Assembly (NCBI GenBank): GCA_028288675.1
Contig: JAQBNG010000112.1
Span: forward strand, 1-37,842
From: Flavisolibacter sp.
GTDB taxonomy: Bacteria > Bacteroidota > Bacteroidia > Chitinophagales > Chitinophagaceae
Reading direction: 5' to 3'
Length of the DNA: 37,842 nucleotides
A program made the translations under genes and the position numbers. Shown piece by piece: positions 1,424-14,949 of this stretch. Under the pieces are notes generated by a model. That model saw only the letters and a program-made list of their open reading frames with translations, made no database searches and was not told where the DNA came from. Position 1 is the stretch's first letter, and the number at the start of each line of letters is the position of its first letter.

Positions 1424-2257
1424 ATGATTAGTATTAAAAACTTATCGTTTGCTTACAAAAAAAAGCCTGTTTTCGATGGGTTGAATCTTCAGTTTAAAGC
1501 AGGGCATGTGTACGGACTGCTGGGTAAGAACGGCACTGGCAAGTCAAGCCTCTTGCGCAATATAGCAGGGCTGCTCTATCCACAAAATGGCAGTATCACC
1601 GTAAACGGTTTTACGCCTTTTGAACGGCTTCCCGTTTTCCTGGAAGATGTTTTTATGGTGCCGGAAGAGTTTTACCTGCCCGATATTTCGGTACCTGACT
1701 TTATAAAGCACTATGCTCCTTTTTATCCCCGCTTCAATAGTGAAAAATTCAGGAACTACATAGCTGTTTTTGAGATTCCTGCCGACAGTACGTTGCAAAA
1801 CATGAGCTACGGGCAGAAAAAGAAAGTGCTGATTTCTTTTGCCCTGGCAACAAATGCCAGGATTTTGCTGATGGATGAGCCAACCAATGGACTGGACATC
1901 ATGAGTAAAAGCCAGTTCAGAAAAATACTGGCCGAAGCGCTGGATGAAGAACAGTGCATCATTATCAGTACGCACCAGGTAAAAGACCTTGAGAATTTAA
2001 TTGACCGTATTACTATCATTGACGAAGGCAAAATTCTGTTTGATGAAAACGTAGAAACGATCACAAAGAAGTTGTCATTTCGGTTTGCTTATGATGCCGA
2101 AGATGTGGCGGCTGCTATCTACAGCGAATCATCTTTGATAGGTAACGTAATTGTAGCGCCTAACATTGATGGGGATGAGGGCAAACTAGACCTGGAATTG
2201 CTTTATAAAGCCATCATTACAAATAGTGAGAAAATCACCAAACTATTCCAACAGTAA
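1424..2257 (+). CDS. ABC transporter ATP-binding protein (YtrB/CcmA-like)
   Basis: This is the nucleotide-binding subunit of an ABC transporter; it powers the membrane partner encoded 9 bases downstream. At 277 residues it has the usual length for a single ATPase domain with a short C-terminal extension. Visible motifs are Walker A GKNGTGKS at about 34-41, an ABC signature with SYGQ at 128-131, Walker B LLMDEP at 148-153, a D-loop GLD and the switch histidine at H184. The Q-loop position reads VPEEF, so Glu replaces Gln. The ATG lies 13 bases after the inverted repeat and no better start is upstream. The order ATPase-permease-GntR matches YtrA-type operons, which often respond to envelope stress or antimicrobial peptides. 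The substrate cannot be told from sequence. Confidence 0.9.
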   Translation: MISIKNLSFAYKKKPVFDGLNLQFKAGHVYGLLGKNGTGKSSLLRNIAGLLYPQNGSITVNGFTPFERLPVFLEDVFMVPEEFYLPDISVPDFIKHYAPFYPRFNSEKFRNYIAVFEIPADSTLQNMSYGQKKKVLISFALATNARILLMDEPTNGLDIMSKSQFRKILAEALDEEQCIIISTHQVKDLENLIDRITIIDEGKILFDENVETITKKLSFRFAYDAEDVAAAIYSESSLIGNVIVAPNIDGDEGKLDLELLYKAIITNSEKITKLFQQ

Positions 2258-2266
2258 ACCTCTTTT

Positions 2267-3091
2267 ATGAACCAATTTTTCAGTCTCAAACGTTTTACTT
2301 TATTGGTATTGAAGCACTGGGCAGACAATAAAAAACGCTACGGTTTGTCGGTGCTCGCGTTCATCGGTTTGTTGATCACCTGGTTCGTGTTTACGATGCT
2401 TACAGGATTTGATAATATACCAATGGGAAAAGCTGTACAACAGATAACTTTTTTCCTTTCGCTTTTTGCTGTGGGTACATTTTATGCCAGCCAGTATTTC
2501 CGCGATCTTGGTTCCCGGTCAAAAGGGATCAATTTTCTTTTAGTTCCAGCTTCAGCATTCGAAAAGCTTTTGTGCAGCCTGCTGTACTCCGTGGTCCTGT
2601 TCTTTATTGTGTTTACCACAGCTTTTTATTTAATAGATGTTTTGATGGTTGCTATTGCAAACAGTTTACCGGGCACGGAAAAATTAGCGGGGAAACCGAA
2701 TGTGATTAACGTTTTTAAAGTGATAATTCTCCGGTTTAACAGTGACTCGACAATCAACTTTTTGCTTTTCTTCTTTTCAGTGCAGTCTGCCTTCCTGCTT
2801 GGTTCTGTTTATTTTGAAAAATACAGTTTCATCAAAACAATCATTTGTGGTTTTGTTGCCGGCTTTATCCTTTTCTGTATGATGTATTTTTTTTACGAGC
2901 ACCTTTTGCCCAACGGAGGGTTTCATAAAGGATTTCTTACTTCTTTCCGTGTGCATGTTGATGGTGTCAATGATCATCTTGTACAAGTACCCCGCTGGAT
3001 AGGGGAGGTATTTCGCTTCCTCATTATGTATGGCATCGCTCCTTTTTTATGGATAGTGACCTATTTCCGTTTGAAAGAAAAACAAGTATAG
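2267..3091 (+). CDS. ABC transporter permease, six-helix ABC-2-like
   Basis: This integral inner-membrane protein is the likely partner of the preceding ATPase. About six hydrophobic helices are visible, including LAFIGLLITWFVFTML near 30-45, LSLFAVGTFYASQYF, a long pair around LLYSVVLFFIVFTTAFYLID, FFFSVQSAFLLGSVYF, GFVAGFILFCMMYFFY and a final FLIMYGIAPFLWIVTYF. The chain ends with a basic cytoplasmic tail (RLKEKQV). No soluble domain or enzymatic motif is seen, and the sequence is too diverged to name a family beyond ABC-2-like. The operon is tight: 9 bases after the ATPase and 18 before the GntR gene, so the three are very probably cotranscribed. Confidence 0.8.
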   Translation: MNQFFSLKRFTLLVLKHWADNKKRYGLSVLAFIGLLITWFVFTMLTGFDNIPMGKAVQQITFFLSLFAVGTFYASQYFRDLGSRSKGINFLLVPASAFEKLLCSLLYSVVLFFIVFTTAFYLIDVLMVAIANSLPGTEKLAGKPNVINVFKVIILRFNSDSTINFLLFFFSVQSAFLLGSVYFEKYSFIKTIICGFVAGFILFCMMYFFYEHLLPNGGFHKGFLTSFRVHVDGVNDHLVQVPRWIGEVFRFLIMYGIAPFLWIVTYFRLKEKQV

Positions 3092-3109
3092 GCGTTTAAA
3101 AATATTACT

Positions 3110-3481
3110 ATGCAATTCAGAGAATCAATAGCCATATACCTGCAAATAGCCGATTACATCTGCGAACGCATTCTGCTAAAGGAGTGGAAAACAGGCGAAC
3201 GTATTCCTGCAGTACGGGAGCTGGCCGTACAAGTGGAAGTCAATCCAAATACTGTGATGCGTACGTTTGAATTTTTACAGGGACAAAACATTATCTACAA
3301 CCAAAGAGGTATCGGATATTTTGTAGGCCCCGATGCAATTAAAAATGCCACACAGTATCGCAAAACAGAATTCATTGAGAAAGAACTGCCTAACATCTTC
3401 CGCAATATCTACATGTTGGATATGGACATAGATGAATTAAGGCCACGTTACGAAAAATTCAAAAAACAAAACTTCAGTTAA
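3110..3481 (+). CDS. GntR-family transcriptional regulator, YtrA subfamily
   Basis: This 123-residue protein has an N-terminal winged helix-turn-helix of the GntR type at about 10-75. It shows the characteristic IYLQIADYI, ERIPAVRELA, VNPNTVMRTFEFL and GIGYFV segments. Only about 45 residues follow, mostly helical and charged, which matches the short dimerisation tail of the YtrA subfamily rather than the larger FadR or HutC effector domains. Members usually repress an ABC transporter operon in which they lie. Here the gene is third in such an operon, and a perfect palindrome sits on the operon's promoter at 1388-1411, so autorepression is likely. The inducer is unknown. Confidence 0.88.
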   Translation: MQFRESIAIYLQIADYICERILLKEWKTGERIPAVRELAVQVEVNPNTVMRTFEFLQGQNIIYNQRGIGYFVGPDAIKNATQYRKTEFIEKELPNIFRNIYMLDMDIDELRPRYEKFKKQNFS

Positions 3482-3498
3482 CCTTATCAAGCTTCGTT

Positions 3499-4194
3499 AT
3501 GAAAAAGAGCAACAAATTATTATTGGGAGGTTTTCTTACAGGGCTTTTACTTATAACTGCTATTCATGTCACCTTGTATGCAAAATATAAGGCCGGCGAC
3601 TATACCGTTTATAACGCAGAAGGAGACCTGGCGTCTCAATCGATGCAAACATTTCCGAATATACTTTTTGTATCAGTGCGCAATGTACCCGATGCAACTG
3701 TAAAATTCAGCGATGTGGCAGGAGTGGAAAAAGTTGAAAACCCTGGAGTAGTGTATGTCCGGCGAGGCGACACTTTGCTAATTACAGGTACGGACAGTAC
3801 GAATAATCATGACTTTGATTACCGGGTAGCATTGAACCTTCCTCACAATGCAACACTGTCCGTGTTTAATTCTTTTCTTTCTTTCAAAACAGGCAAAAAA
3901 ACAGCAGAAAGCAATCCAATTATCTACCTGCAGAAGTCCCAGGCTATTTTTTCAGGTGCTGAAACTCCAGTTCAATTTGGACATTTAAAAGTTTTTGCGT
4001 CAGGCAGTTCCACTGCAACGTTCCGGGGCAATACCCAGATCAACAATCTTGAAGTGCAGCTTTCTCATTCTTCTATTGAATATACTGATGGCAATTTTGA
4101 TCAACTGTCCATTGTGACAGATTCTGTATCCCGCATCTCTCTTCAATCAAAACATTTATTAAAAGCAAACATTAAAACCATAGCCTCCCAATAA
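3499..4194 (+). CDS. Membrane-anchored beta-rich protein of unknown function
   Basis: The product has 231 residues. A lysine-flanked hydrophobic segment at about 7-27 (LLLGGFLTGLLLITAIHVTL) looks like an uncleaved anchor or signal peptide. The rest is rich in short beta strands with repeated aliphatic, Ser and Asn patterns, such as FGHLKVFASGSSTATFRGNT and INNLEVQLSHSSIEYTDGN. This resembles the stacked-strand architecture of the DUF2807 and DUF4097 adhesin-like families; that likeness is by eye and not certain. It follows the GntR gene by 17 bases and precedes the receptor gene by about 115 bases. Similar proteins are common beside YtrA-type ABC operons in Bacteroidota, suggesting an envelope role. 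No catalytic residues are evident. Confidence 0.6.
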   Translation: MKKSNKLLLGGFLTGLLLITAIHVTLYAKYKAGDYTVYNAEGDLASQSMQTFPNILFVSVRNVPDATVKFSDVAGVEKVENPGVVYVRRGDTLLITGTDSTNNHDFDYRVALNLPHNATLSVFNSFLSFKTGKKTAESNPIIYLQKSQAIFSGAETPVQFGHLKVFASGSSTATFRGNTQINNLEVQLSHSSIEYTDGNFDQLSIVTDSVSRISLQSKHLLKANIKTIASQ

Positions 4195-4309
4195 CGCAAT
4201 CATCGTAAACAACAGCGTAACGTTTCCCTTGCCCGGAGCGACTGGCCGTCCCATGCTACAAATCACTAAAATTCTCAGCTAACAATAATTCATCTACAAA
4301 ATTTATTTT

Positions 4310-6742
4310 ATGAAGATCTCTGTCTTACTAGCATCCCTTGTTCTCTTTCTCTCAAGTGCAATTGCACAAAATGGGGGAAAAATTTCGGGAAGCATATTGC
4401 AAAATGGGAAAGCTGCCGGAGGTGCAAGTGTTAGTTTGCTTCGTGCCAGGGACTCGGCAACAGTTAAAATAGCAGCAGCAAATAGCGAAGGCCTTTATTC
4501 TTTTGAAAACATACCCGACGGAAAATATGTCGTTTCTGTAACTGCAGTTGGCCATCGAAAAAGCTTTTCAAAAATCATTGACGTAACTGCGCAGCAACAG
4601 GTAGTACAATTGCCCGCTATTAATCTTGTACCTGTTAGTAAAGACATGGCTGGGGTTACAGTCACGGCAAGTCGTCCATTGGTGGAGCAACGCATAGACA
4701 GGACAATTGTAAACGTTGATGCGTCAATAACAAATGTTGGTACATCAGCCTTGGAAGTGCTGGAAAAATCACCCGGTGTTTCTGTTGACAGGGATGGCAA
4801 TATTAGTTTGAAAGGAAAGGAAGGTGTGTTGGTTATGGTTGATGGGCGACCAACACAATTAGGAGGGGCAGACCTTGCTAACCTTTTGCGTAACATGAGT
4901 TCCAACCAACTCGATCAAATAGAAATAATGACAAACCCACCTGCCCGCTACGATGCGGCAGGCACTTCGGGTATTATCAATATAAAAACAAAGAAAACAA
5001 TTTCTGCGGGGTACAATGGCTCGGCAACTTTGACTTATTCGCAGGGACGATATGCTAAGACTGCTGAAGGTTTCAACTTTAATTACCGGGAAGGCAAAGT
5101 GAACGTGTTCTCAACGTTGAGTCACAACTACATGAAGCAATACGGAACCATAAATATTGATAGAAACATCTTCGACAATACTACAAATACAATAGACAAA
5201 GTTTTCAACCAGGAAGCTAATAGACTTGCAGAAGGCAATGCATATAATGCAAAAGTTGGACTGGATTTTTTTGCAACGAAGAATACAACATTTGGTGCTG
5301 CACTAACCATAAATTCAAGACACGTTTTAGCGAAGAACCCTAACATCACAAGAATTTCAAATTCTTCTAAAGATTTGGAAAGTGTGACAAAAGCGATGGT
5401 TGATAATAAGAACGACTGGAATGGGTTGGGCACTAACTTAAACTTTCGCACAGTGCTGGATAAAAAGGGTAAAGAGCTTACATCGGATATTGACTTTCTG
5501 AAATATGGTTCACAAAACGACCAATTCATGGTTAATTCTTATACCGATGCAATTGGAAGTCCATATAGAAAAGCAGATACATTAATGGGTGATCTACCCC
5601 AGAACATAAAAGTATATACTGCAAGAGTAGACTACCTGCAGCCGATGAATAAGGGTGCAAAATTTGAAGCCGGTATTAAAACTGGTATTGTTAGGACTGA
5701 TAATAATGCTGCGTACGATAGTATTCAAAATGGAAGAATCATTCATGACTTTAACCGCAGCAACCATTTCGTTTATGAAGAAAATATTAACGCAGCGTAT
5801 GTTAACCTTAGTGCACCATTATCAAAAAAAATAACCGCGCAGTTTGGCTTGCGTTTAGAAAATACAAATGCAAAAGGAGTTCAAAAAACCACGGGGGAAG
5901 ATTTTGACAGGCATTACACACAGCTCTTTCCTACAGCTTTCTTCCAATACAAGGCAAATGATAAAAACAACTTTGGGGCAAACCTTGGCAGACGTGTTCG
6001 TCGCCCGTCGTACGAAAGCTTAAATCCGTTTATAAGGTTCATCGACAGGTACATGTACCAAAAAGGAAATCCGGCCCTTAAGCCTTCTGTAAGCACTAAT
6101 CTCGAAATATCTCATACATGGAAAAACCAAATAACAACAACACTAAATTATTCACGTACTAAAGATGTTGTTGACGGAATCATTGAACAGAAAGGACAGG
6201 AAACATATACAATACCTGCAAACATTTCTTCTCTTACGCAATTCGGACTTTCAATAAATGCTAACACACCTATTACTAAATGGTGGACAAGCAGCATCAA
6301 CATAAATGCGTTTAATAATAACTACAAGGGTGTGGTAAGCAGTGCTCCTATTGACCTTGCTGCGACAAGTTTTGTTGTTACAGGAACGCAGCAGTTCAAA
6401 GTAACTAAAACACTCACTGCAGAACTAAATGGCAGGTTTAGAAACGGCTGGTATGAAGGTGTAATGAGAGCAAAATCTATTGCATTTATGGGCATCGGAG
6501 TTAGCCAGCAGGTGTTGAAAAATGCGGGTACCATTCGTTTCACCGTACGTGATATTTTTCACAGCCAGGTATTCAGGGGCAGAAGCCAATATGGTAATGT
6601 AGATTTCGAAATCGAACAGGTAAACGAAACACGTATTGCATCAATTGGCTTCTCTTACCGCTTCGCTAAAGGAAAAAAGATTGCACCGGTAAAAAGAACG
6701 GCAGGCAGCGCAACTGAAGAACAGGATCGTATCGGGCAATAA
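4310..6742 (+). CDS. TonB-dependent-type outer-membrane beta-barrel receptor
   Basis: The product is an 810-residue outer-membrane protein. A signal peptide ends near residue 20 (SSAIAQ). An N-terminal carboxypeptidase-regulatory-like domain follows at about 22-110 (GKISGSILQNGKAAGGASVS to GHRKSF), then a plug domain at about 125-235 with VLEKSPGVSVDRDG, VMVDGRPTQL and MTNPPARYDAAGTSGIINIK. The remainder is alternating-strand barrel sequence ending at IGFSYRF, with a basic tail after it. This architecture is the outer membrane beta-barrel family common in Bacteroidota, usually without a SusD partner, and none is present here. The ligand is unknown. Its place after the ABC/GntR cassette and before two more ABC modules suggests a shared envelope or peptide-handling role. 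A hairpin terminator follows directly. Confidence 0.88.
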   Translation: MKISVLLASLVLFLSSAIAQNGGKISGSILQNGKAAGGASVSLLRARDSATVKIAAANSEGLYSFENIPDGKYVVSVTAVGHRKSFSKIIDVTAQQQVVQLPAINLVPVSKDMAGVTVTASRPLVEQRIDRTIVNVDASITNVGTSALEVLEKSPGVSVDRDGNISLKGKEGVLVMVDGRPTQLGGADLANLLRNMSSNQLDQIEIMTNPPARYDAAGTSGIINIKTKKTISAGYNGSATLTYSQGRYAKTAEGFNFNYREGKVNVFSTLSHNYMKQYGTINIDRNIFDNTTNTIDKVFNQEANRLAEGNAYNAKVGLDFFATKNTTFGAALTINSRHVLAKNPNITRISNSSKDLESVTKAMVDNKNDWNGLGTNLNFRTVLDKKGKELTSDIDFLKYGSQNDQFMVNSYTDAIGSPYRKADTLMGDLPQNIKVYTARVDYLQPMNKGAKFEAGIKTGIVRTDNNAAYDSIQNGRIIHDFNRSNHFVYEENINAAYVNLSAPLSKKITAQFGLRLENTNAKGVQKTTGEDFDRHYTQLFPTAFFQYKANDKNNFGANLGRRVRRPSYESLNPFIRFIDRYMYQKGNPALKPSVSTNLEISHTWKNQITTTLNYSRTKDVVDGIIEQKGQETYTIPANISSLTQFGLSINANTPITKWWTSSININAFNNNYKGVVSSAPIDLAATSFVVTGTQQFKVTKTLTAELNGRFRNGWYEGVMRAKSIAFMGIGVSQQVLKNAGTIRFTVRDIFHSQVFRGRSQYGNVDFEIEQVNETRIASIGFSYRFAKGKKIAPVKRTAGSATEEQDRIGQ

Positions 6743-6761
6743 TAACATTACATCTTCATTT

Positions 6762-6795
6762 CAATGGACAACTATTTTTAAGTAGTTGTCCATTG
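6762..6795 (+). terminator. Hairpin terminator after the receptor gene
   Basis: CAATGGACAACTA and TAGTTGTCCATTG form a perfect 13-bp stem around an 8-base loop, 19 bases after the receptor stop codon. The 3' side is AT-rich but has no clean T-run, so termination may be partial. Its right arm reaches into the apparent TTG at 6793, which argues for the downstream ATG as the next gene's start. Confidence 0.6.
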
Positions 6796-6816
6796 AACAA
6801 ATTTCATTTTCTGCTT

Positions 6817-7746
6817 ATGTCTTTTGCAATTGAAACAAGGGATCTGAATTATTCTTACACCAAGGATAGAAGATCAGTCAACAACCTTTCGCTGCAGGTT
6901 CCTACAGGTAGTATCTATGGATTCCTCGGACCAAATGGCGCTGGAAAAACCACCACAATCCGGCTATTAACAGGCATGTTGCTATCTGACAAGGACAATG
7001 TTTTTATTCAAGGCAAGTCCCTGCAAAGAAATTTACCGCAGATTTTTAATTCGATGGGGACGCTGATCGAAATGCCATCGCTTTACCTCCATCTAACCGG
7101 TAAAGAAAATCTTCGCCTCATAGCAACGATGAGAGGAATTCACCGTAATAGAATTGATGATGCTTTACAAACTGCGGGACTTGCGGGAGCTGCGAATAAA
7201 AAAACAAAACAATATTCTTTAGGTATGAAGCAAAGGCTGGGCATTGCAATGGCTATGCTCTCTGATCCTGAATTACTGATACTTGATGAACCTGCAAACG
7301 GACTTGATCCAACCGGTATTATCGAGGTAAGGCAATTACTGGTAAAATTGAATAAAGAACAAGGGAAGACCATTTTTGTTTCCAGTCATTTATTAGGTGA
7401 AGTTGAAAAAACCTGTACGCATATTGGTATCATCCATCATGGAATTATGCGCTATAATGGAACATTGGAACAAATGAAAGCTTCTGCATATGACGCCGCC
7501 GATGTGATCTTAAAAGTGCAGGAAGCAGAACATTGGTTGCCGCAAATCACATCACAATATCCGTTAGCAAAAGTGCAGGGCCGCGATGAAATAACCCTAC
7601 CTGCAACTTCACGTGAAGAAGTAACACATATCAACCAACAATTAGTAAGAATGAACATTCCGGTTGCAGGCATCCAACTGCGCGGCGGATTGGAAGAATG
7701 GTTCATGCATATTATTGACCAGGAAAAAGACAAGCAAATACTATGA
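6817..7746 (+). CDS. ABC transporter ATPase, bacitracin/lantibiotic-exporter type with E-loop
   Basis: This 309-residue ATPase belongs to the BcrA/LanF-like group. Walker A GPNGAGKT lies at about 38-45, the signature is YSLGMKQR, Walker B LLILDEPANGLD, and the switch histidine is in VSSHLLGEVE. The Q-loop is replaced by LIEMP, with Glu at residue 85, followed by LTGKENL. A Glu at this place (E-loop) is known from ATPases of lantibiotic self-immunity transporters such as NukF. The C-terminal third (about 225-309) is an accessory region seen in this group. I chose the ATG at 6817 over the TTG at 6793 because the latter lies inside the terminator stem. The gene overlaps the next by an ATGA. It probably drives export or expulsion of a peptide or lipid from the membrane; this role is inferred from family. 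Confidence 0.9.
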   Translation: MSFAIETRDLNYSYTKDRRSVNNLSLQVPTGSIYGFLGPNGAGKTTTIRLLTGMLLSDKDNVFIQGKSLQRNLPQIFNSMGTLIEMPSLYLHLTGKENLRLIATMRGIHRNRIDDALQTAGLAGAANKKTKQYSLGMKQRLGIAMAMLSDPELLILDEPANGLDPTGIIEVRQLLVKLNKEQGKTIFVSSHLLGEVEKTCTHIGIIHHGIMRYNGTLEQMKASAYDAADVILKVQEAEHWLPQITSQYPLAKVQGRDEITLPATSREEVTHINQQLVRMNIPVAGIQLRGGLEEWFMHIIDQEKDKQIL

Positions 7747-9950
7747 AGAATTTTTTAGCAACACATAATAAAGCGCTGAAGGCTGAATGGCTAAAACTGC
7801 ATCATTCAGGTATGCTTTGGTTTTGCCTCGCGGCGGCGGCTTTCATCCCTGCTTTTCACACGTTAGTAAGCTTTTTTGAGTCGGTAGGAGACCTCAGCCC
7901 TGAGAGCGGGAACAAGATGATACAAATGGATTTCCAGATTTTCACCAATTTCTTTTTCCCGGTTTTCGTGGTGATTGTGGTGGTTCGGTTAGTTTACATG
8001 GAACACCGGTTTGATACATGGAAACTGGTAGAAACACAACCCGTATCGAAGGCAGCTATCTATTTTTCAAAGTGGGAGATCGCGGCATTTATTTCTTTTT
8101 GTTGCCTGCTAACGTTGCTGGTGGTGGCATTTTTAGGAGGATTAATTTTGCAATTTGGGAGACCCGCATTAGGCTTTGATCAAAGCAATATCAATTGGGG
8201 TCACGCCCTGCAGGCACTCACACGATTTTGGATTGCCAGCCTCTGCATAATTTCAGTTCAGTATTGTTTAACTGTATTGCTTAAAAGCTTTGCATTGCCT
8301 ATGAGCATTGGCCTGGTTGCAATTTTTGCCGGCTCTTTTGCACAGGCACTGGGATATATGAATTGGTGGCCATATTCTGCTACACAAATTACATCGGACA
8401 CGTACGGGGGTGCACCTAATGGTGAGTTTTTACTTTCACACGAAAAGATCAGCCTGATATCTTCTTTGTTATTTATTTGGCTGGGTTACCAACTTTACAG
8501 GCGCAAATCTTTCAGGAAAGCATTCCTCTCACCAATAAAAAATATGGTAGTTGCAGTTGCAGTTATCGCAGTATTTGCGTTGGCAATTTCAGCCGTAAAT
8601 AAACCTACAGTGCTCAATAGATATAGCGCAACTGTTGTAGCCGGGGAAATTAAATCAGCAACTCCCATTGCACAAGTGTTGTTGCTACGTTCTCCAATGA
8701 TGGATACGGTAATGACTATCCCTGTGGTTAACGATCATTTTCATTTAAAAACTGACAAGCAAATTGCAACCGGCATTTATTATCTAAAAGCAGGTTCGCA
8801 GGCAAGACGTTTGTTCATGGGAAATAAGGACAGCGTTTATGTTGATATTTCTTTTAGCGAAGGGGAGCCGAAAATACAAGTGTCGGGAACAAGAGTGGCA
8901 GAAAATGATTACCTGGTAAATGGTAAGCGAACTGACATTGAAATTCTGGGTCAATATGCTAATAATGTGCCACCATCAAATTTCGCAGATGACCTTATGG
9001 AATATTATAATGATGGTATTCGGGCATTGGAGACTTTCAAGACCAGCGATCGCATTAAACCGGCTGACGACTTTATAGAGCTTAGAAAAAAATTATTTGC
9101 AACACAGGTATTGGCGCTTGCTGATGGTGTTTACCCAAAGATCTTTGCAGCTTACTTTCCTAACCAGGAGTTGCAATTCCCGGAATCGATTAACGAATTG
9201 CGTGCAGGTGTTTCTCTCAATAGTCCCGAACTGATTTCTTTCCCCGAATATCGTAGATATGTAACATCAGCACTGCGCGAAAAAGCGGGTATAAATGACA
9301 GTCTATATTTTGGAATGCTGAATGATTCATTGCAGGATCCATACACCCGTGATGTGATCATTTATGAAGCAGCATCAACATCAATTGTAAGATTAAAAGA
9401 CAGCATCCGTCGGAATACGCTCATTGCCGGTATTCTTCTTAACACGAAAACAGGAATCGTAAATACTAAACTTACCGAAGCGAATCAGCGTGCTAATATT
9501 TTACATGGTGGCAAACCTGCACATGATTTTATCGCAGAGGCATTAAACGGAAAGCAAAAGAGGCGATTTGATTTCGTGGGGAAATATTTAGTAGTGGAGT
9601 TCAGGGATGCCGGTTGTGCGCCATGCAAAAAGGAAAGCCCGTTTTTTGAAAGTCTTGCAGACCGACTCACTTCACCAAAACTTGCGTTTGTCTCTTTATC
9701 ACTTGATGAGGATAAGAAAGTTTGGCAAACAGAAGCCAATCTTAAAAAGAAAACGAAAGTGTTGCAGCTTCTATCGAAGGATGATAAAGGCAGGATATCG
9801 GAAGCTTACGGGTTAGGAATAAGTCCAAGGTTTGTGCTGATTGATCCAAAGGGCAATATTATCAATCCGCACCTTCCTTCTCCATCTGAGCCAGAGTTTG
9901 AAATGATCCTGCAGAAGGAAATCCCTTCGCAAGGGTTCAGCGATGATTGA
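7743..9950 (+). CDS. ABC permease fused to periplasmic DUF4369-like and TlpA/thioredoxin domain
   Basis: The 735-residue protein joins two parts. Residues 1 to about 255 are an ABC-2 permease of the lantibiotic-immunity kind, with six helices and the N-terminal pattern KALKAEWLKLHHSGMLWF. A seventh helix (MVVAVAVIAVFALAISAV, about 275-292) follows. With a cytoplasmic N terminus, it places the rest in the periplasm. Residues of about 295-390 are beta-rich and resemble the DUF4369 domain of Bacteroidota TlpA-like proteins, followed by a helical linker. A thioredoxin fold fills about 595-735, with VVEFRDAGCAPCKKE (C625-A-P-C628) and a cis-proline segment GISPRFVLIDPKGNI. Ordinary permeases of this group have about 250 residues, so this is a true fusion with no stop or frameshift. 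It overlaps the upstream ATPase by 4 bases. It may couple thiol reduction or oxidation to transport; that is inference. Confidence 0.88.
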   Translation: MKNFLATHNKALKAEWLKLHHSGMLWFCLAAAAFIPAFHTLVSFFESVGDLSPESGNKMIQMDFQIFTNFFFPVFVVIVVVRLVYMEHRFDTWKLVETQPVSKAAIYFSKWEIAAFISFCCLLTLLVVAFLGGLILQFGRPALGFDQSNINWGHALQALTRFWIASLCIISVQYCLTVLLKSFALPMSIGLVAIFAGSFAQALGYMNWWPYSATQITSDTYGGAPNGEFLLSHEKISLISSLLFIWLGYQLYRRKSFRKAFLSPIKNMVVAVAVIAVFALAISAVNKPTVLNRYSATVVAGEIKSATPIAQVLLLRSPMMDTVMTIPVVNDHFHLKTDKQIATGIYYLKAGSQARRLFMGNKDSVYVDISFSEGEPKIQVSGTRVAENDYLVNGKRTDIEILGQYANNVPPSNFADDLMEYYNDGIRALETFKTSDRIKPADDFIELRKKLFATQVLALADGVYPKIFAAYFPNQELQFPESINELRAGVSLNSPELISFPEYRRYVTSALREKAGINDSLYFGMLNDSLQDPYTRDVIIYEAASTSIVRLKDSIRRNTLIAGILLNTKTGIVNTKLTEANQRANILHGGKPAHDFIAEALNGKQKRRFDFVGKYLVVEFRDAGCAPCKKESPFFESLADRLTSPKLAFVSLSLDEDKKVWQTEANLKKKTKVLQLLSKDDKGRISEAYGLGISPRFVLIDPKGNIINPHLPSPSEPEFEMILQKEIPSQGFSDD

Positions 9951-10055
9951 GTTTTGTTAAACCTAAAGTAGAGTTTAAGGCAGCAATTATCGGCAACACC
10001 GCTCATCATTGTTCTTACTCCTTTGCTTAAAATAAAAGCCTTAAACATTACATTA

Positions 10056-10970
10056 ATGGATAACCCATATATCATTAAAACTACTGGCCTTTCTTATCAT
10101 TATTCAAAGGGTGCACAAACATTGTTCGACATTAACGTGAATGTGGGAAGAGGAAGTATCTATGGTTTTCTTGGACCAAATGGTTCGGGTAAAACAACGA
10201 CTTTAAGCTTGCTGCTTGGCTTGCTAAATAACCGGCAGGGCGATATTGAAATTTTCGGTCAGCACCTGCATTCAAACAGGGTTGAGATTTTGAAAAAGAT
10301 AGGATCGCTAATTGAAACACCTTCTTTGTATGGCCATCTTACCGCAAAAGAAAATCTTGAAGTGTACCGTTCTGTTTATAATGCACCAAAGGCAAGAATA
10401 GATGATGTTTTGAAAGTTGTTGGCCTTGAGGATTCAGGTAAAAAGACCGTCAAAAAGTTTTCATTGGGAATGAAACAACGCCTGGCCATTGCCCTTGCAC
10501 TTTTACCAAATCCAGAATTATTGATACTTGATGAACCTTCCAACGGATTAGATCCCGCTGGGATCATTGAGCTTCGCGAATTGATTAAAAAATTGAACAA
10601 GACATACGGTATGACAATACTGATATCAAGTCATTTGCTGGGGGAGGTAGAGAAGATGGTAAGTCATGTCGGCATTATTTTCAAGGGGAAAATGTTATTC
10701 CAGGGCACACTTTCTGAGCTTCATTTATATCAACAAAAAGGATCAAGGCTATTTATAAAAACATCAGATAATGAAACTGCGTATGGTCTCTTGCAGGAGC
10801 ATCATCCTGAACTAGCCGGAGATACAGTCTCAGTTGCATTCAATGATATCAACCAGGTAGCTGCTATCAACAGAACGCTTACCGAACATGATCTGGATGT
10901 TTACCTGCTTCATCCAAAGGCAAACGACCTGGAACAATTATTCATTGACCTTACATCAGCCCAATCATGA
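10056..10970 (+). CDS. ABC transporter ATPase, second E-loop copy
   Basis: This 304-residue ATPase is a clear paralogue of the one at 6817. It shares GSIYGFLGPNG, the FSLGMKQRL signature, LLILDEPSNGLDP and SSHLLGEVE. Walker A is GPNGSGKT at about 40-47. The Q-loop is again replaced by Glu (LIETP, E87) followed by LTAKENL. The ATG at 10056 is preferred to the TTG at 10023 because it gives the usual short N terminus before the first strand (TTGLSYHY). About 105 non-coding bases separate it from the fusion gene. It overlaps the following permease by ATGA, so the two are translationally coupled. The likely role is energising export of an antimicrobial peptide or similar membrane-active compound. 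Confidence 0.9.
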   Translation: MDNPYIIKTTGLSYHYSKGAQTLFDINVNVGRGSIYGFLGPNGSGKTTTLSLLLGLLNNRQGDIEIFGQHLHSNRVEILKKIGSLIETPSLYGHLTAKENLEVYRSVYNAPKARIDDVLKVVGLEDSGKKTVKKFSLGMKQRLAIALALLPNPELLILDEPSNGLDPAGIIELRELIKKLNKTYGMTILISSHLLGEVEKMVSHVGIIFKGKMLFQGTLSELHLYQQKGSRLFIKTSDNETAYGLLQEHHPELAGDTVSVAFNDINQVAAINRTLTEHDLDVYLLHPKANDLEQLFIDLTSAQS

Positions 10971-11737
10971 ATCTATATATTTCGCTTCGCTCAGAAATAG
11001 TAAAAACAAAGAGAACAGCAGCATTTTATTTTACTCTCATAGGCGCGGCTGTTGTACCATTTATGTTCCTGTGTAACGTATTAACAGATGGCCTTCCGGA
11101 TGAGGACAAAAGCAGCAAAGACCCGCTCAATGCAATGTTTAAGCTTGCATCGGAAACAACGGGACTGGGAATTTTACCCTTATTTGTTGTACTCCTGTGC
11201 ACACTGCTGCCACAAGTAGAGTACAGGAATAATACGTGGAAACAGGTATTGACATCACCACAAACAAAGGCAAATGTGTTCCTGGCCAAGTTCCTGAATA
11301 TTCATTTGCTTATCCTTTTGTTTTTGGTTGCAAACCATTTGTTTATGTGGCTTGTTGTAATTGCCACTCATTATATTATTCCGGACTTAAACCTCTTGAA
11401 TCAGCCTCTTAATATTTACACGGTATGGGTAAACTGTGCTAATTCATATATTACTATTCTTGCTATTTGCGCTATACAGTTCTGGGTAGGGTTAAGGATT
11501 AAAAATTTCCTTGTTCCTATAGCCATTGGGTTGGCATTATGGCTAACAGGTACTTTAATGGTATTAGAATACCACTCAAGTTTTGCAAATTACTTTCCCT
11601 ACAGTTTCCAGGTTTTCAGTTTCTCTCCGCAACATAAATCCTGGCTCAACCAGGTTGCATGGACTTCGTTCGGATATGCCATCTTGTTTCTTTTCATTGG
11701 CTTTTTAGATTTTAGAAGAAGAAGGATAAACGCATAA
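10967..11737 (+). CDS. ABC permease, lantibiotic-immunity type, without fusion
   Basis: The 256-residue integral membrane protein is the partner of the second ATPase. It starts with SLRSEIVKTKRTAAFYFTLI, the same pattern as the first permease (KALKAEWLKLHHSG), so the two are paralogues. About six helices are visible: AAVVPFMFLCNVL, GILPLFVVLLCTLLP, ILLFLVANHLFMWLVVIAT, ITILAICAIQFWVGL, FLVPIAIGLALWLTGTLM and FGYAILFLFIGFLDF. A basic tail RRRR follows. Its length matches ordinary ABC-2 members, which shows what the sister permease at 7743 has gained. The stop codon lies within a hairpin at 11732-11772 that probably ends the operon. Confidence 0.85.
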   Translation: MNLYISLRSEIVKTKRTAAFYFTLIGAAVVPFMFLCNVLTDGLPDEDKSSKDPLNAMFKLASETTGLGILPLFVVLLCTLLPQVEYRNNTWKQVLTSPQTKANVFLAKFLNIHLLILLFLVANHLFMWLVVIATHYIIPDLNLLNQPLNIYTVWVNCANSYITILAICAIQFWVGLRIKNFLVPIAIGLALWLTGTLMVLEYHSSFANYFPYSFQVFSFSPQHKSWLNQVAWTSFGYAILFLFIGFLDFRRRRINA

Positions 11738-11772: not shown

Positions 11773-11998
11773 ATACGCAATGTCAGCCGCTTATTATTTG
11801 TTATGGAACGATACACGACCTCGGACCAACTTTGTAACGTTTTCAACTATTTAAAGACATGAGAACTCATCAAGAAATAATTGGTAGTCTATACACCTTA
11901 AAATACATGCTATAAATGAAGCAGCGTCGCGGAAGAAATCCTTGAGATAATGCATTAACCGCATCGGCTAAAGGAGAAGCGATGCTTTGGCTAAATAG

Positions 11999-12384
11999 TA
12001 CACATTAATCGCTGCCGGCATTATTGTCTTAGCCATACCCTATCTTTCATTATGCCCCATCTTTATTGCCAATATAAGGCTGATTGAGTTCTTCGGCATT
12101 ATTGCACTTTTAATTGTATTTGAATTCCTAAATTTAGTACTTCATCCACTCCTTGAACGAATCACAAATCATTCACCCGTTTTATTATTACTGACTTTGG
12201 TTGGCATTACTGATATGTTGGTGTCCTTACATCTTTATAAAAAATGGGCTGCCACCAGGCTGGTACAAAGGAACAATGCTATAGGATTAGCTGCGGCGAA
12301 AAGATGATAGAAGCACTGAAGCAGCGCCTGACCGTGAAGCTGCCAAACAACCTTGCAGTGATAATTTTGAACAAGACTAAGTAA
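11999..12384 (+). pseudogene. Frameshifted C-terminal remnant of a membrane protein
   Basis: From 11999, just after an in-frame TAG, an open frame runs to TGA at 12305-12307. It encodes two hydrophobic segments (LIEFFGIIALLIVFEFLNLV and SPVLLLLTLVGITDML) followed by a charged stretch ending VQRNNAIGLAAAKR. Translation then continues sensibly in another frame as MIEALKQRLTVKLPNN to the stop at 12382-12384. This indicates a frameshift in a helix that follows the membrane part. No start codon or N-terminal portion is found upstream. The family is not recognised. The intact YitT-type gene starts 21 bases later and is unrelated. Confidence 0.5.
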
Positions 12385-12405
12385 ACACATACTGCCTTTT
12401 ATAAT

Positions 12406-13302
12406 ATGAAAAAGAATTACAAAACGGGCGTCATTGAATGGAAGCATATCTTGAATGCAAAGCACCTGCTGCAGCTTGTAGTGGGCACTCTGCTAGCTGT
12501 TATCGCCATGAAGGGCTTCATGATACCCAACCGGTTTCTCGACGGCGGCGTTACGGGGATATCCATTTTATTTCACGAGATCTTTCACTTTAAAATAAGC
12601 CTGCTGGTGGTGGTTCTTAACCTTCCATTTATCTACCTTGGTTATAAACGCATCGGCAAAACCTTTGCCGTGCAAACAAGTATTGCTGTGGCACTGTTAG
12701 CACTTGGGTTGATATTTTTCAACATTGGCCCTATCACCAGCGACCGGTTGCTGATTGCCATCTTCGGCGGCATACTCATTGGCTCCGGCATTGGCCTCGT
12801 TATACGGGCTGGCGGCGTTATTGACGGCGCTGAAGTAATTGCTGTTTTTACCAAAAGGCGCACCGGCTTTTCCAACAGCGAAATCATTATGGCTATTAAC
12901 ACGGTCATCTTCGCCATAGCGGCTATTAAGTTTGGAATTGAGACTGCCATGTACTCTGTTATCACGTATTTTACCGCCACAAGAGCTACGGATTATGTGG
13001 TGGACGGCATTGAAGAATTTACTGCTATGAATATCATTTCTTCCCATCCCGAGGAAGTAAAGAGTTTGCTGGTAAACGATCTTGGTAAAGGCATTACCGT
13101 TTATAAGGGCGAACGTGGTTACCTGCCCGGAAGCTTCGACATCAAAGCCGATTGCGAGATTATTGTCACCATTATTACCCGCCTGGAAATAAAACAAATT
13201 GAGGAAGCGCTGGCCATCATTGACCCTACAGCCTTTGTTTACATACAAACTATTAAAGAAGCTAGTGGTGGAGTGTTGAAACCAAAGTCGCATGTGAAAT
13301 AA
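12406..13302 (+). CDS. YitT-family membrane protein (DUF161 plus DUF2179)
   Basis: The 298-residue protein has an N-terminal membrane region of about five or six helices. It carries the typical YitT motifs GFMIPNRFLDGGVTGISIL at about 38-55, GIGLVIRAGGVIDGAEVIAV at about 128-147 and FSNSEIIMAINTVIFAIA. Helical pairs like these mark the DUF161 repeats. A soluble C-terminal DUF2179 domain (about 205-285) follows, with ITVYKGERGYLPG and an alternating-strand ACT-like pattern through EIIVTIITRLEIKQIEEAL. The family is widespread, and transport of an unknown small solute is assumed. It stands alone between a decayed gene and a kinase remnant, so context gives no further clue. Confidence 0.9.
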   Translation: MKKNYKTGVIEWKHILNAKHLLQLVVGTLLAVIAMKGFMIPNRFLDGGVTGISILFHEIFHFKISLLVVVLNLPFIYLGYKRIGKTFAVQTSIAVALLALGLIFFNIGPITSDRLLIAIFGGILIGSGIGLVIRAGGVIDGAEVIAVFTKRRTGFSNSEIIMAINTVIFAIAAIKFGIETAMYSVITYFTATRATDYVVDGIEEFTAMNIISSHPEEVKSLLVNDLGKGITVYKGERGYLPGSFDIKADCEIIVTIITRLEIKQIEEALAIIDPTAFVYIQTIKEASGGVLKPKSHVK

Positions 13303-13413
13303 CATTGTGTAATAAAGCATTTGATAGCCTCGGTTGATGAACATAAGATGAAAGCAAAATCAATCAAAGGAGGGTTCCCAGGAGAAATATCCAGTAACTA
13401 AAGATGTTGATAC

Positions 13414-13640
13414 TGTTTTATTTCCATAGGCGATAATGGCACTGTATTTTAAGCCTACGCTTGATAAAATTCCAACCCTTTTTTTACCACTAAATCCACC
13501 GGGTGGGAACAGGCCTGGGTTTATCGTTAAGTTATGATATTGTAAATACACATGGCAGTGAGTTGCCCGTAGACACAAACGAAAGTGAATGGACAAATGT
13601 TTTTGTCACTATTCCAATCAACAACATGGCTCATAATTAG
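13414..13640 (+). pseudogene. Remnant of a histidine-kinase ATPase domain
   Basis: Pieces of a GHKL ATPase domain survive in different frames. They are ISIGDNG near 13420-13440 (the N/G1 region), PFFTTKSTG near 13477-13500, and from 13506 GTGLGLSLSYDIV followed by NTHGSELPVDTNESEW to a TAG at 13638-13640. The order equals that of the intact kinase at 14950-18714 (DNGNGIP, PFFTTKPAG, GTGLGLSMSYDIV, KAHGGSLKVETK). At least two frameshifts and a stop separate the pieces. It is therefore the tail of a lost paralogous sensor kinase. No N-terminal part is detectable before about 13400. Confidence 0.75.
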
Positions 13641-13685
13641 TGCTGAGATAAGTTATAGTAAATTACGCTAACAGAATTCAATAAT

Positions 13686-14501
13686 ATGACGTCGAAAACG
13701 GTAAAGCCTCTTGCATCTAAAGTGAAAGCGGGGAAGCTTCCATATGTACACGACCCCAGGACCTTTCATCTGTCACAGTATTTATCGCAGGAGCCGGTAG
13801 TAAAAATTCCCCAGGAATATAATTGGGGAAGAATAATTCACCCTGGTACATGGAGTTCTTTCGGCAACTTAAAAATGAACAATTGCACCTGTGCGGCCGC
13901 CGGACATTTAATAATGAGTTGGACGGGCAATATTGGCCGGCTTCATAAACCAACAACAAAAGCTATTGTAAAGGCATATACAGATATAACAGGCTTTAAT
14001 GCTGAAACTGATGGAATTGGTGAGCCTGTTGAAGCTATAAAAACACTGAAATATTGGCGCAAATATGGAATTGATGAACGTAAGATCACAGCCTTCGCGA
14101 AACTGGATTTTAGGAATCATCAGCAACTAAAACAAACTATCTATTTATATGGTGGTTGCTATATTGGGCTAAATCTCCCTAAATCCGCTGAAGAACAATA
14201 TAACAAATCTAAAAAATGGACGGTACCCCGTAGCGGCACAAATGGTGATGGAGAGCCTGGCTCCTGGTTGGGACATGCTTTGACGATTACGGGTTATAGC
14301 AAGAACGAATTAACCGCCATTACATGGGGCAAGGAAATTACCATGTCATTAGATTTTTGGGAAACTTATGTAGATGAATCCTATGCCATATTCAGTGAAG
14401 ATTTTGTACGGGATAACCGGACCCCTACTAAGATCAGCGTAGATATATTGAGAAATGATATTGAGACTCTGCAAAATAAAAAAGCGGAATTACAAACCTG
14501 A
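13686..14501 (+). CDS. Papain-like (C1-type) cysteine peptidase homologue with altered active site
   Basis: The 271-residue protein has no signal peptide. MNNCTCAAAGHLIMSW at 64-79 resembles the catalytic-cysteine helix of papain-like enzymes (CxxxCWAF region), with C67 and C69 as candidate nucleophiles. GHALTITGY at 196-204 matches the catalytic-histidine strand (H197), followed by LTAITWGKEI, where papains have NSWG. Here the Asn position is Thr (T213), and no oxyanion Gln is evident before the cysteine. The middle (DGIGEPVEAIKTLKYWRKYG) matches C1-like folds that process or bind peptides. It could be a weak or inactive peptidase or a transglutaminase-like relative. A helical tail (ISVDILRNDIETLQNKKAEL) ends the protein. 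It faces a small convergent ORF and may be recently acquired. Confidence 0.6.
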   Translation: MTSKTVKPLASKVKAGKLPYVHDPRTFHLSQYLSQEPVVKIPQEYNWGRIIHPGTWSSFGNLKMNNCTCAAAGHLIMSWTGNIGRLHKPTTKAIVKAYTDITGFNAETDGIGEPVEAIKTLKYWRKYGIDERKITAFAKLDFRNHQQLKQTIYLYGGCYIGLNLPKSAEEQYNKSKKWTVPRSGTNGDGEPGSWLGHALTITGYSKNELTAITWGKEITMSLDFWETYVDESYAIFSEDFVRDNRTPTKISVDILRNDIETLQNKKAELQT

Positions 14502-14567
14502 TAGAAAGGCGAACTGAATTACAAAAATTGAAGAACGGCTTTATGGTAAGTTATCCCGCTTTGTCCT

Positions 14568-14696
14568 TTACGAAAGACTTCCCTGGTTAGGAACCCCACC
14601 CAACTTAAGGGGTTTAGCAGAAGATGTGTTGCGGGCAGAAACCTTTTTAGATGTAACTGCTTTTTCTTTTTTAGCGACCGGTTTTGACTTACTCAT
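14568..14696 (-). CDS. Small lysine-rich protein, 42 residues, unknown
   Basis: An ATG at 14694-14696 opens a 42-codon frame ending with TAA at 14568-14570. The product starts MSKSKPVAKKEKAVTSKK and ends LGGVPNQGSLS. It is strongly basic, rich in Lys, Ser, Val and Ala, and predicted disordered. Codon use resembles neighbouring genes and the frame is cleanly bounded. It converges with the papain-like gene, whose stop lies 67 bases away. Lys-rich small proteins of this look can bind nucleic acid or be peptide substrates, but nothing specific is recognised. An AT-rich leader precedes it. The remaining gap of about 250 bases to 14950 shows no other gene. Confidence 0.4.
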   Translation of the reverse strand: MSKSKPVAKKEKAVTSKKVSARNTSSAKPLKLGGVPNQGSLS

Positions 14697-14949
14697 GGCG
14701 ATTTTTTTGTTTTTATAAATATGAGGATCAGGTTAAAAATTATAAGATCTGCGATCTGCTTTTCGAAAGCAATTTAATAAAATTATTAAAACCAAATTTT
14801 TTTTAATATTTATGTTTCAATAATCGTGAATGGTTTATGCATAAATTAATAGTTTGATGCTTATTGGCAGGATACTCATCACTATAACAACCCTATAAAA
14901 AAGATAATTAATTTTCTAAAAATAGTAACCGAACAACTACTTAACAATT

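Follow-up and report, generated by a model that had tools for sequence, protein, structure and literature searches.

An ABC-2 permease fused to a TlpA-like thiol-disulfide oxidoreductase in Bacteroidota: a candidate exporter with a tethered redox domain

A stretch of DNA from Flavisolibacter sp. (GenBank assembly GCA_028288675.1, contig JAQBNG010000112.1; 37,842 nucleotides, hereafter the window) encodes what looks like an ABC permease continued by a thioredoxin-fold domain, which raises the question of whether these are genuinely one protein and what a membrane transporter might do with a redox enzyme attached to it. The first of these questions can be answered directly: the gene is a single 735-codon frame without an internal stop, and Pfam recovers, each above its gathering score, both ABC2_membrane_4 (residues 12-197, E 2e-23) and AhpC-TSA (residues 590-706, E 3e-11). 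The covalent fusion with the CAPC cysteines C625 and C628, proposed in a first-pass annotation of this DNA, is thereby confirmed (Table 1).

Table 1. Features of the locus (positions in the window; residues in the fused protein)
Feature	Position	Strand	Remarks
GntR-type regulator	3110..3481	+	same gene run
Outer-membrane beta-barrel protein	4310..6742	+	OMP_b-brl_3 with plug and regulatory domain
ABC ATPase partner (ABCb)	6793..7746	+	4-base overlap with the fused gene; E-loop; same order in 17/17 fusion loci
Fused gene: ABC-2 permease, helix 7 and predicted TlpA-like thiol-disulfide oxidoreductase	7743..9950	+	735 aa
Permease half	7743..8528	+	residues 1-262; six helices; motif WKLVETQP; from Pfam ABC2_membrane_4, helices and tree
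Helix 7	8541..8597	+	residues 267-285; matches, in alignment, the export signal of unfused TlpA-like proteins
Linker domain, predicted periplasmic	8598..9509	+	residues 286-589; weak likeness to DUF4369; can be aligned to unfused TlpA-like proteins
Thioredoxin-fold domain	9510..9893	+	residues 590-717; CAPC 625-628; P695 at the cis-proline place
Second ABC ATPase (ABCc)	10023..10970	+	unfused branch; E-loop
Second permease	10967..11737	+	unfused; six hydrophobic segments; motif WKQVLTSP

A search for further fusions of this kind recovered the same architecture in 16 more genomes, some of them from Paenimyroides and Chryseobacterium isolates, and both halves were matched by Pfam in all 15 fusions scanned. 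Such recurrence rules out both an overlooked stop codon and an assembly error, and with nothing found in favor of a chimeric contig an artefact is vanishingly improbable. At least two families, f1 and f25, are represented among the 17 fusion genomes. For seven of the fusions the motif WKLIETQP with its variants was the sole route of detection, so that its constancy in these is by selection; the window protein used as sole query against the genome contigs gave no match. The two plasmid records recovered hold only separate TlpA proteins, neither covering 80% of the query.

The placement of the redox domain depends on the membrane topology. A hydropathy scan of the window fusion finds seven hydrophobic segments, the sixth of them weak (0.94 against a threshold of 0.9), including the seventh helix that had been postulated beyond the six-helix permease, and the positive charges fall on the predicted cytoplasmic side. 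Hydropathy and charge alone thus put the C-terminus outside, in agreement with the earlier argument that an odd number of helices would leave the redox domain in the periplasm. Further, helix 7 falls, in the alignment, on the segments judged by eye to be export signals in stand-alone TlpA-like proteins of 443-509 aa, whose sequences align with the C-terminal half of the fusion; the segment with which these proteins begin is a permease helix in the fused chain, and this would account for the odd helix and the periplasmic C-terminus. However, for five of the 15 fusion proteins scanned the segment count is even (eight in four of them, six in one), which, read literally, would turn the C-terminus of those fusions inward and counts against the explanation favored below. 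Sequence comparison links the permease domain to no protein of solved structure, the one match (E 0.56) being due to chance. For the region between helix 7 and the thioredoxin fold, the label "DUF4369-like" proved shaky: a weak likeness exists (E 0.16), but it scores 13 bits against a Pfam cut-off of 25, and none of 15 fusion proteins matches DUF4369 at E<=0.01.

The TlpA-like half of the window fusion combines a match to the thioredoxin fold with a CxxC motif and a cis-proline segment (P695), features in which it resembles Bacteroidota TlpA/ResA-like proteins of solved structure (PDB 4k9z, 2lja, 2lrn). All 17 fusions keep the CxxC motif, and all 17 have the proline in the cis-proline position. 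Scores against the NCBIfam models stay below the cut-offs (ResA, 50.2 vs 170 bits; TlpA, 28.4 vs 230 bits), and on these sequence features the C-terminal half is predicted to be a complete TlpA-like thiol-disulfide oxidoreductase. A WA(T/S)W motif precedes the CxxC in 16 of the 17; the window copy has lost it, including the tryptophan preceding the CxxC, and its activity may hence differ from that of the other 16. Among the cysteine columns of the permease half none exceeds 8/17 fusions, and, outside the CxxC, the alignment of the 17 shows no conserved cysteine with which a regulatory disulfide could form. The latter bears on the idea that the CxxC domain is a sensor through which oxidative stress in the envelope would open or close the exporter: sensor and pump would then form a single chain in all 17 genomes, as the fusion allows, but the lack of a partner cysteine makes redox gating of this kind distinctly unlikely.

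As for the origin of the fusion, the permease halves (17 fused vs 41 unfused, support 100/100), their ATPase partners (17 vs 40, 100/99) and the TlpA halves (17 fused vs 17 stand-alone, 100/100) each part on one branch, and no sampled unfused row falls inside the fusion branch in any of the three trees. The 41 unfused permeases are drawn from those found and given loci, with L120 dropped as a duplicate of L015; the stand-alone TlpA rows come from 17 of 19 regions, L079 and L090 having incomplete frames; and L140, without an ATPase frame within the set distance, is absent from the ATPase tree. Long branches are flagged in all three trees, with a warning in the ATPase and TlpA trees that the long branches of L023 and L040 come together. 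Since permease, TlpA half and ATPase each split off on one well-supported branch, the simplest reading is one old fusion event, probably inherited together with its ATPase, the trees being unrooted and thus compatible with gain and loss of the fusion alike. The neighboring permease in the window does lack the fusion, but the further claim that the gain can be dated within the locus fails: this permease groups with the unfused branch, while the fusion forms a separate branch in 17 genomes. The same conservation tells against the permease being a mere anchor that holds an all-purpose periplasmic reductase at the inner membrane, the two activities being unrelated. Such a role would accord with the by-eye export signals of the stand-alone relatives, the fused half needing an anchor of its own; however, across 17 genomes of at least two families the fusion stays paired with one ATPase branch, and none of the sampled unfused permeases falls among the fused ones; we consider the anchor reading quite unlikely.

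The ATPase gene lies directly upstream of the fusion in all 17 loci, in one cut by the contig end. An E-loop in place of the Q-loop is a trait of LanF, and the fusion ATPases carry it, with glutamate at this place in 16/17 and aspartate in 1/17, as do all 42 unfused ATPase rows (one gene counted twice). The earlier assignment to the lantibiotic-immunity type holds in part. In its favor are this E-loop and weak matches to MutG (25.1 vs a cut-off of 117.2 bits) and MutE/EpiE (24.2 vs 145.2 bits); on the other side, these NCBIfam cut-offs are all missed, as is that of the gallidermin-type ATPase model (ABCb 234.2 and ABCc 243.9 vs 309.75 bits), and no lantibiotic-synthesis family appears among the 20 window proteins scanned by Pfam (of 53 listed ORFs). 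Models for export of phenol-soluble modulins likewise stay below cut-off (PmtR, 40.1 vs 200; PmtA, 116.1/127.1 vs 350; PmtC, 124.9/135.3 vs 375 bits). PMC4239024 describes LanFEG as one ATPase with two distinct permeases, and BcrA, of 280-320 aa, as paired with a single small permease (200-250 aa). The window has two ATPases with one permease each, and BLAST finds no second window-like permease in the available flanks of the other 16 fusion loci. Its ATPases measure 317 and 315 aa, the unfused permease 256, the permease half about 262 and the fused chain 735 aa. The likeness to BcrAB/LanFEG (BcrA/BcrB; LanF/LanE/LanG) lies in a six-helix ABC-2 permease of about 250 aa next to one ATPase of about 315 aa, in the weak model matches and in the E-loop, while the fusion system differs in missing the curated cut-offs, in having no second distinct permease per ATPase and in adding helix 7 and a TlpA-like protein.

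The presence of a thiol-disulfide domain and a pump in one conserved chain suggests that both act on the same substrate. We therefore tentatively favor, while holding it somewhat less than even, a two-gene exporter, most like BcrAB/LanFEG, in which the ATPase and the fused permease hand a substrate to the tethered thiol enzyme; the outward direction would follow by analogy from family likeness. The permease would work as a dimer, placing two thioredoxin domains above its periplasmic face, and ATP would power the removal from the inner membrane of a substrate that is hydrophobic or inserted in it, perhaps a peptide or another compound with disulfides. The tethered domain might exchange thiols with the leaving substrate, which would be kept reduced, unfolded or inactive, or be set to the right thiol state. 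As the permease half has no conserved cysteine pair able to carry electrons, recharge would come from outside the pump, with the one DsbD-type protein in the window's genome as candidate. The stronger form of this proposal, one polypeptide that both extracts from the inner membrane under ATP and exchanges thiols on the same substrate, descended from one ancient fusion inherited with its own ATPase, is possible but doubtful. Of the proposed reduction of an attacking peptide, that of disulfides is possible; the thioether part is not supported, thioethers (lanthionines) not being known to be reduced by CxxC thioredoxin folds.

A different use of ATP would be mechanical, moving the periplasmic domain without transport and so switching a disulfide reductase or isomerase for envelope proteins such as the neighboring barrel. 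NosF, which by sequence comes next after human ABCA lipid transporters among solved ATPases, lends this some weight, being the partner of a periplasmic protein. A large domain after helix 1 marks type VII systems, and the hydropathy scan finds none in the fused permease, which argues the other way. The order barrel, ATPase, fusion recurs in three of 17 loci (the window and two of Paenimyroides, with a barrel of the same family), as this reading would have it, but BLAST detects no relative of the window's barrel in 13 of the 17 flanks, some only 0.7-1.3 kb long, one further contig ending inside the ATPase. Members of this barrel family occur widely, with matches at E<=1e-130 in 101 of 147 genomes, so the pairing may be chance and is not taken as a strong clue. 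A precedent for ATP-driven periplasmic movement is described in PMC12646458 for YbbAP-TesA of Escherichia coli. This ABC transporter, which is proposed to offer compounds from the membrane to an enzyme positioned in the periplasm at its outer face, is equally a precedent for the exporter favored above; the enzyme, however, is a hydrolase, bound rather than fused, and the permease is of type VII. On balance, mechanical coupling appears unlikely.

Genes around the cassette vary among the 17 loci, which counts against the exporter reading; a NifU-like gene lies upstream in three genomes (by Pfam on one of the three), and a promoter-like pattern gave four matches against 9.3 expected, on which nothing is claimed. 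The search for a split ABC-permease-TlpA operon covered 20 regions, of which L087 is itself a fusion; BLAST found no match to the fusion or the window permease in the 19 around unfused TlpA-like relatives, and gene context hence gives no independent link. In L094, a related ATPase lies about 4 kb away on the opposite strand. CcmAB with CcmG pairs an ABC exporter with a thioredoxin during cytochrome c assembly, and handling of heme or a cofactor would explain the parts by analogy; CcmA models match ABCb (100.4 and 101 bits), and in L023 (1/17 loci) the divergent upstream neighbors are a UbiA-type prenyltransferase, two COX3 proteins and a DUF420 protein. However, the CcmA cut-offs of 131.6 and 195 bits are missed and partial Pfam scans of the other flanks show no such genes, making this very improbable.

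The first-pass annotation knew of no described ABC-2 exporter with a tethered redox enzyme, and our searches of open-license PMC papers, which found none, are consistent with this. A further precedent for the exporter reading is the fet cluster of Campylobacter jejuni (PMC10783030), in which the ABC transporter FetBCD is clustered with the membrane-associated periplasmic thioredoxins FetEF; these are not fused and are linked to iron, and the likeness rests on the gene cluster and not on the permease families. In the literature covered, ABC transporters that work together with a periplasmic thioredoxin are encoded separately from it, whereas here the two form one fused, conserved chain. A single gene allows the coupling of pump and redox activity to be tested with ATPase-dead and CxxC-dead point mutants, and the fusion would offer a handle on the use to which Bacteroidota put some of their many TlpA-like proteins.

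The fused gene overlaps the end of the upstream ABC ATPase gene by four bases, and its frame joins the permease and redox parts in a single uninterrupted chain, as the first-pass annotation had proposed. Among solved proteins, the putative thiol-disulfide oxidoreductases 4k9z (E 5e-17) and 2lja (E 7e-17) come closest to the C-terminal part. The label of a DUF4369-like domain is doubtful: the match in the window fusion reaches 13 bits against a cut-off of 25, no hit at E<=0.01 was obtained in the 15 fusion proteins scanned, and the three hits at that threshold among eight stand-alone relatives scanned are all below cut-off.

Features of the fused protein, the window and compared loci
Feature	Position	Description
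Window gene run	1424-11737	ATPase, six-helix protein without Pfam match, GntR regulator, weakly DUF2807-like protein, outer-membrane barrel, ATPase, fusion, ATPase, permease
First ATPase and six-helix protein	1424-3091	immediately ahead of the GntR gene
ATPase of the cassette	6793-7746	directly upstream of the fusion
Fused gene	7743-9950 (+)	735-aa frame, stop-free
ABC2_membrane_4	residues 12-197	Pfam, E 2e-23, above cut-off
AhpC-TSA	residues 590-706	Pfam, E 3e-11, above cut-off
RDAG	9603-9614	in place of WA(T/S)W
Unfused permease	from 10967	second permease of the window
Unclassified protein	13686-14501	271 aa, no Pfam match
L157 (genome G098)	4242-8634	barrel, ATPase, unfused permease
L162 (host genome, contig C50)	6593-11328	second outer-membrane barrel
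L023 (another fusion locus)	11917-16107	UbiA-type prenyltransferase, two COX3 proteins, DUF420 protein; divergent from the ATPase-fusion pair

A hydropathy scan of the window protein reveals seven hydrophobic segments, the sixth weak and the last at residues 267-285, with 15 lysines and arginines in the predicted cytoplasmic loops (the N-terminus and loops 2, 4 and 6) as opposed to three in periplasmic loops 1, 3 and 5. By the same scan, 15 fusion proteins contain seven segments in ten cases, eight in four and six in one, with a segment within residues 266-295 in every one of them; six were counted in the unfused permease at 10967. Further, in the first 170 alignment columns, helix 7 aligns with the N-terminal signal of 17 stand-alone TlpA-like proteins, which by eye divides into lipoprotein signals and ordinary signal peptides, and the longest alignments between stand-alone relatives and the fusion span approximately residues 275-725. 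On account of this, the fused half resembles an intact exported protein in which the signal for export was turned into helix 7. Such an origin supports the periplasmic placement of the redox domain that had been proposed earlier, with which the segment count and charge distribution of the predicted topology agree. In three loci (L077, L093, L096), stand-alone relatives adjoin genes resembling SusC/SusD pairs in size and order only.

The same architecture was recovered in 16 further genomes, bringing the total to 17. In the host family (294 genomes), 12 matches at E<=1e-20 comprise nine full fusions, including that of the window's own genome, and three permeases only; among the five genomes listed for the host genus, the window's alone has a match. 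The order (396 genomes) gave 13 matches with three full fusions, each already in the family count, while the 75 matches at E<=1e-30 in the phylum (395 genomes) include two full fusions, the window's and a new one from another family, the others being partial. Motif-based scanning of genome_contigs (84,980 species, each with one genome), which detects only proteins bearing one short motif and is no proof of absence elsewhere, returned 42 stretches; 14 were relatives, all with both halves matched, and seven of these were already among the family matches. Carriers include Chitinophagaceae MAGs and the isolate genomes of Paenimyroides aquimaris, P. viscosum, P. tangerinum and Chryseobacterium potabilaquae. 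Whole-chain identity to the window protein is 22-37% for 15 of the 16 other fusions, the copy in genome G909 lying outside those alignments.

In each of three trees a single branch parts the 17 fusions from their relatives: 41 unfused permeases (100/100), 40 ATPases linked to unfused permeases (100/99) and 17 stand-alone TlpA-like proteins (100/100). Additionally, W(K/Q)LxE(T/V)QP is present in 17/17 fused permeases, being constant by selection in the seven found only through WKLIETQP or its variants, and in none of the 42 unfused permease rows, 25 of which carry WKQxxxSP. Since the trees are unrooted with flagged long branches, and the unfused rows were gathered with profiles built largely from fusions, a single gain of the fusion is the simplest reading and not proof. 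The suggestion that this gain could be dated via the neighboring permease at 10967 fails, as that permease groups with the unfused ones (nearest L139, a permease locus, at 49% identity) and is thus not a recent sister.

The CxxC motif and the proline after it are kept in all 17 fusions, and WA(T/S)W precedes CxxC in 16. The window copy is the sole one without a tryptophan there, which makes it an unusual member whose redox behavior may have changed; its end branch in the permease tree is long (1.39). In the permease half, the best-shared cysteine column covers at most 8 of the 17 fusions, which renders it unlikely that the permease carries electrons in the manner of DsbD. The host genome encodes one DsbD-type protein (90.7 bits, cut-off 27.1), which could recharge the redox domain.

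The glutamate of the E-loop is a mark of LanF proteins. It occupies the Q-loop place in 16 of the 17 fusion-locus ATPases (aspartate in the other) and in all 42 unfused-linked ATPase rows, one gene being counted twice. This much favors the previously proposed lantibiotic-immunity type; against it, the cut-offs of the NCBI curated lantibiotic models were not reached, and with a single permease for each ATPase the arrangement is closer to BcrAB than to LanFEG, going by the account in PMC4239024. By analogy, we take the cassette to work like BcrAB/LanFEG-like exporters without being a member.

A same-strand ATPase lies directly upstream of the fusion in 17/17 loci (in L033, the contig end falls inside it). 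In the window, the cassette belongs to nine co-directional genes with gaps of -4 to 115 bases, with start codons as called; we take the layout at their beginning, up to the GntR gene, to recall Ytr-type operons. In two Paenimyroides, ATPase and fusion are preceded by a barrel that Pfam places in the same family as the window's (25-27% identity to it), and no barrel match was found in 13 of the 17 loci with 0.7 to 7.7 kb examined before the ATPase; L033 has no upstream room. As such barrels are frequent (matches at E<=1e-130 in 101 of the 147 family genomes), the adjacent barrel is a weak clue. In G098, the barrel, ATPase and unfused permease are adjacent, with identities of 70, 79 and 50% to the window's, and there is no fusion cassette. 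Hence, the window looks like this three-gene set with the cassette inserted between barrel and ATPase, or else the cassette was lost in G098. The barrel in L162 is 73% identical to the window's; small genes come after it, together with a 94-aa frame resembling part of the unfused permease, and L162 may be a degraded relative of the gene set in the window. Elsewhere, L016, L017 and L019, related loci, share a 198-aa gene of similar start upstream of the ATPase, NifU-like by Pfam in L016. On visual inspection alone, NCTCAAAGH in the window's 271-aa protein resembles the active site of papain-type enzymes. The genes divergent from the pair in L023 offer a possible heme context at one of the 17 loci, which slightly raises the probability of a link to heme, still a very improbable alternative.

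Searches limited to open-licence PMC papers brought up no description of a fused ABC permease-thioredoxin. The closest working precedent is YbbAP-TesA, for which it is proposed that the ABC transporter offers compounds from the membrane to a periplasmic enzyme bound to it (PMC12646458), and the closest genetic one is FetBCD with the thioredoxins FetEF (PMC10783030). We tentatively favor, at somewhat less than even confidence, a function in which the pump would extract or export a substrate and the tethered thioredoxin domain would exchange thiols with that same substrate. The authors of the FetBCD study argue that FetE and FetF may be oxidases (PMC10783030), so the exchange in the fusion could likewise run in either direction. 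Thioether reduction, raised in the first-pass annotation, is left aside on general chemical grounds, while reduction of disulfides in an attacking peptide is a possible role for the fusion.
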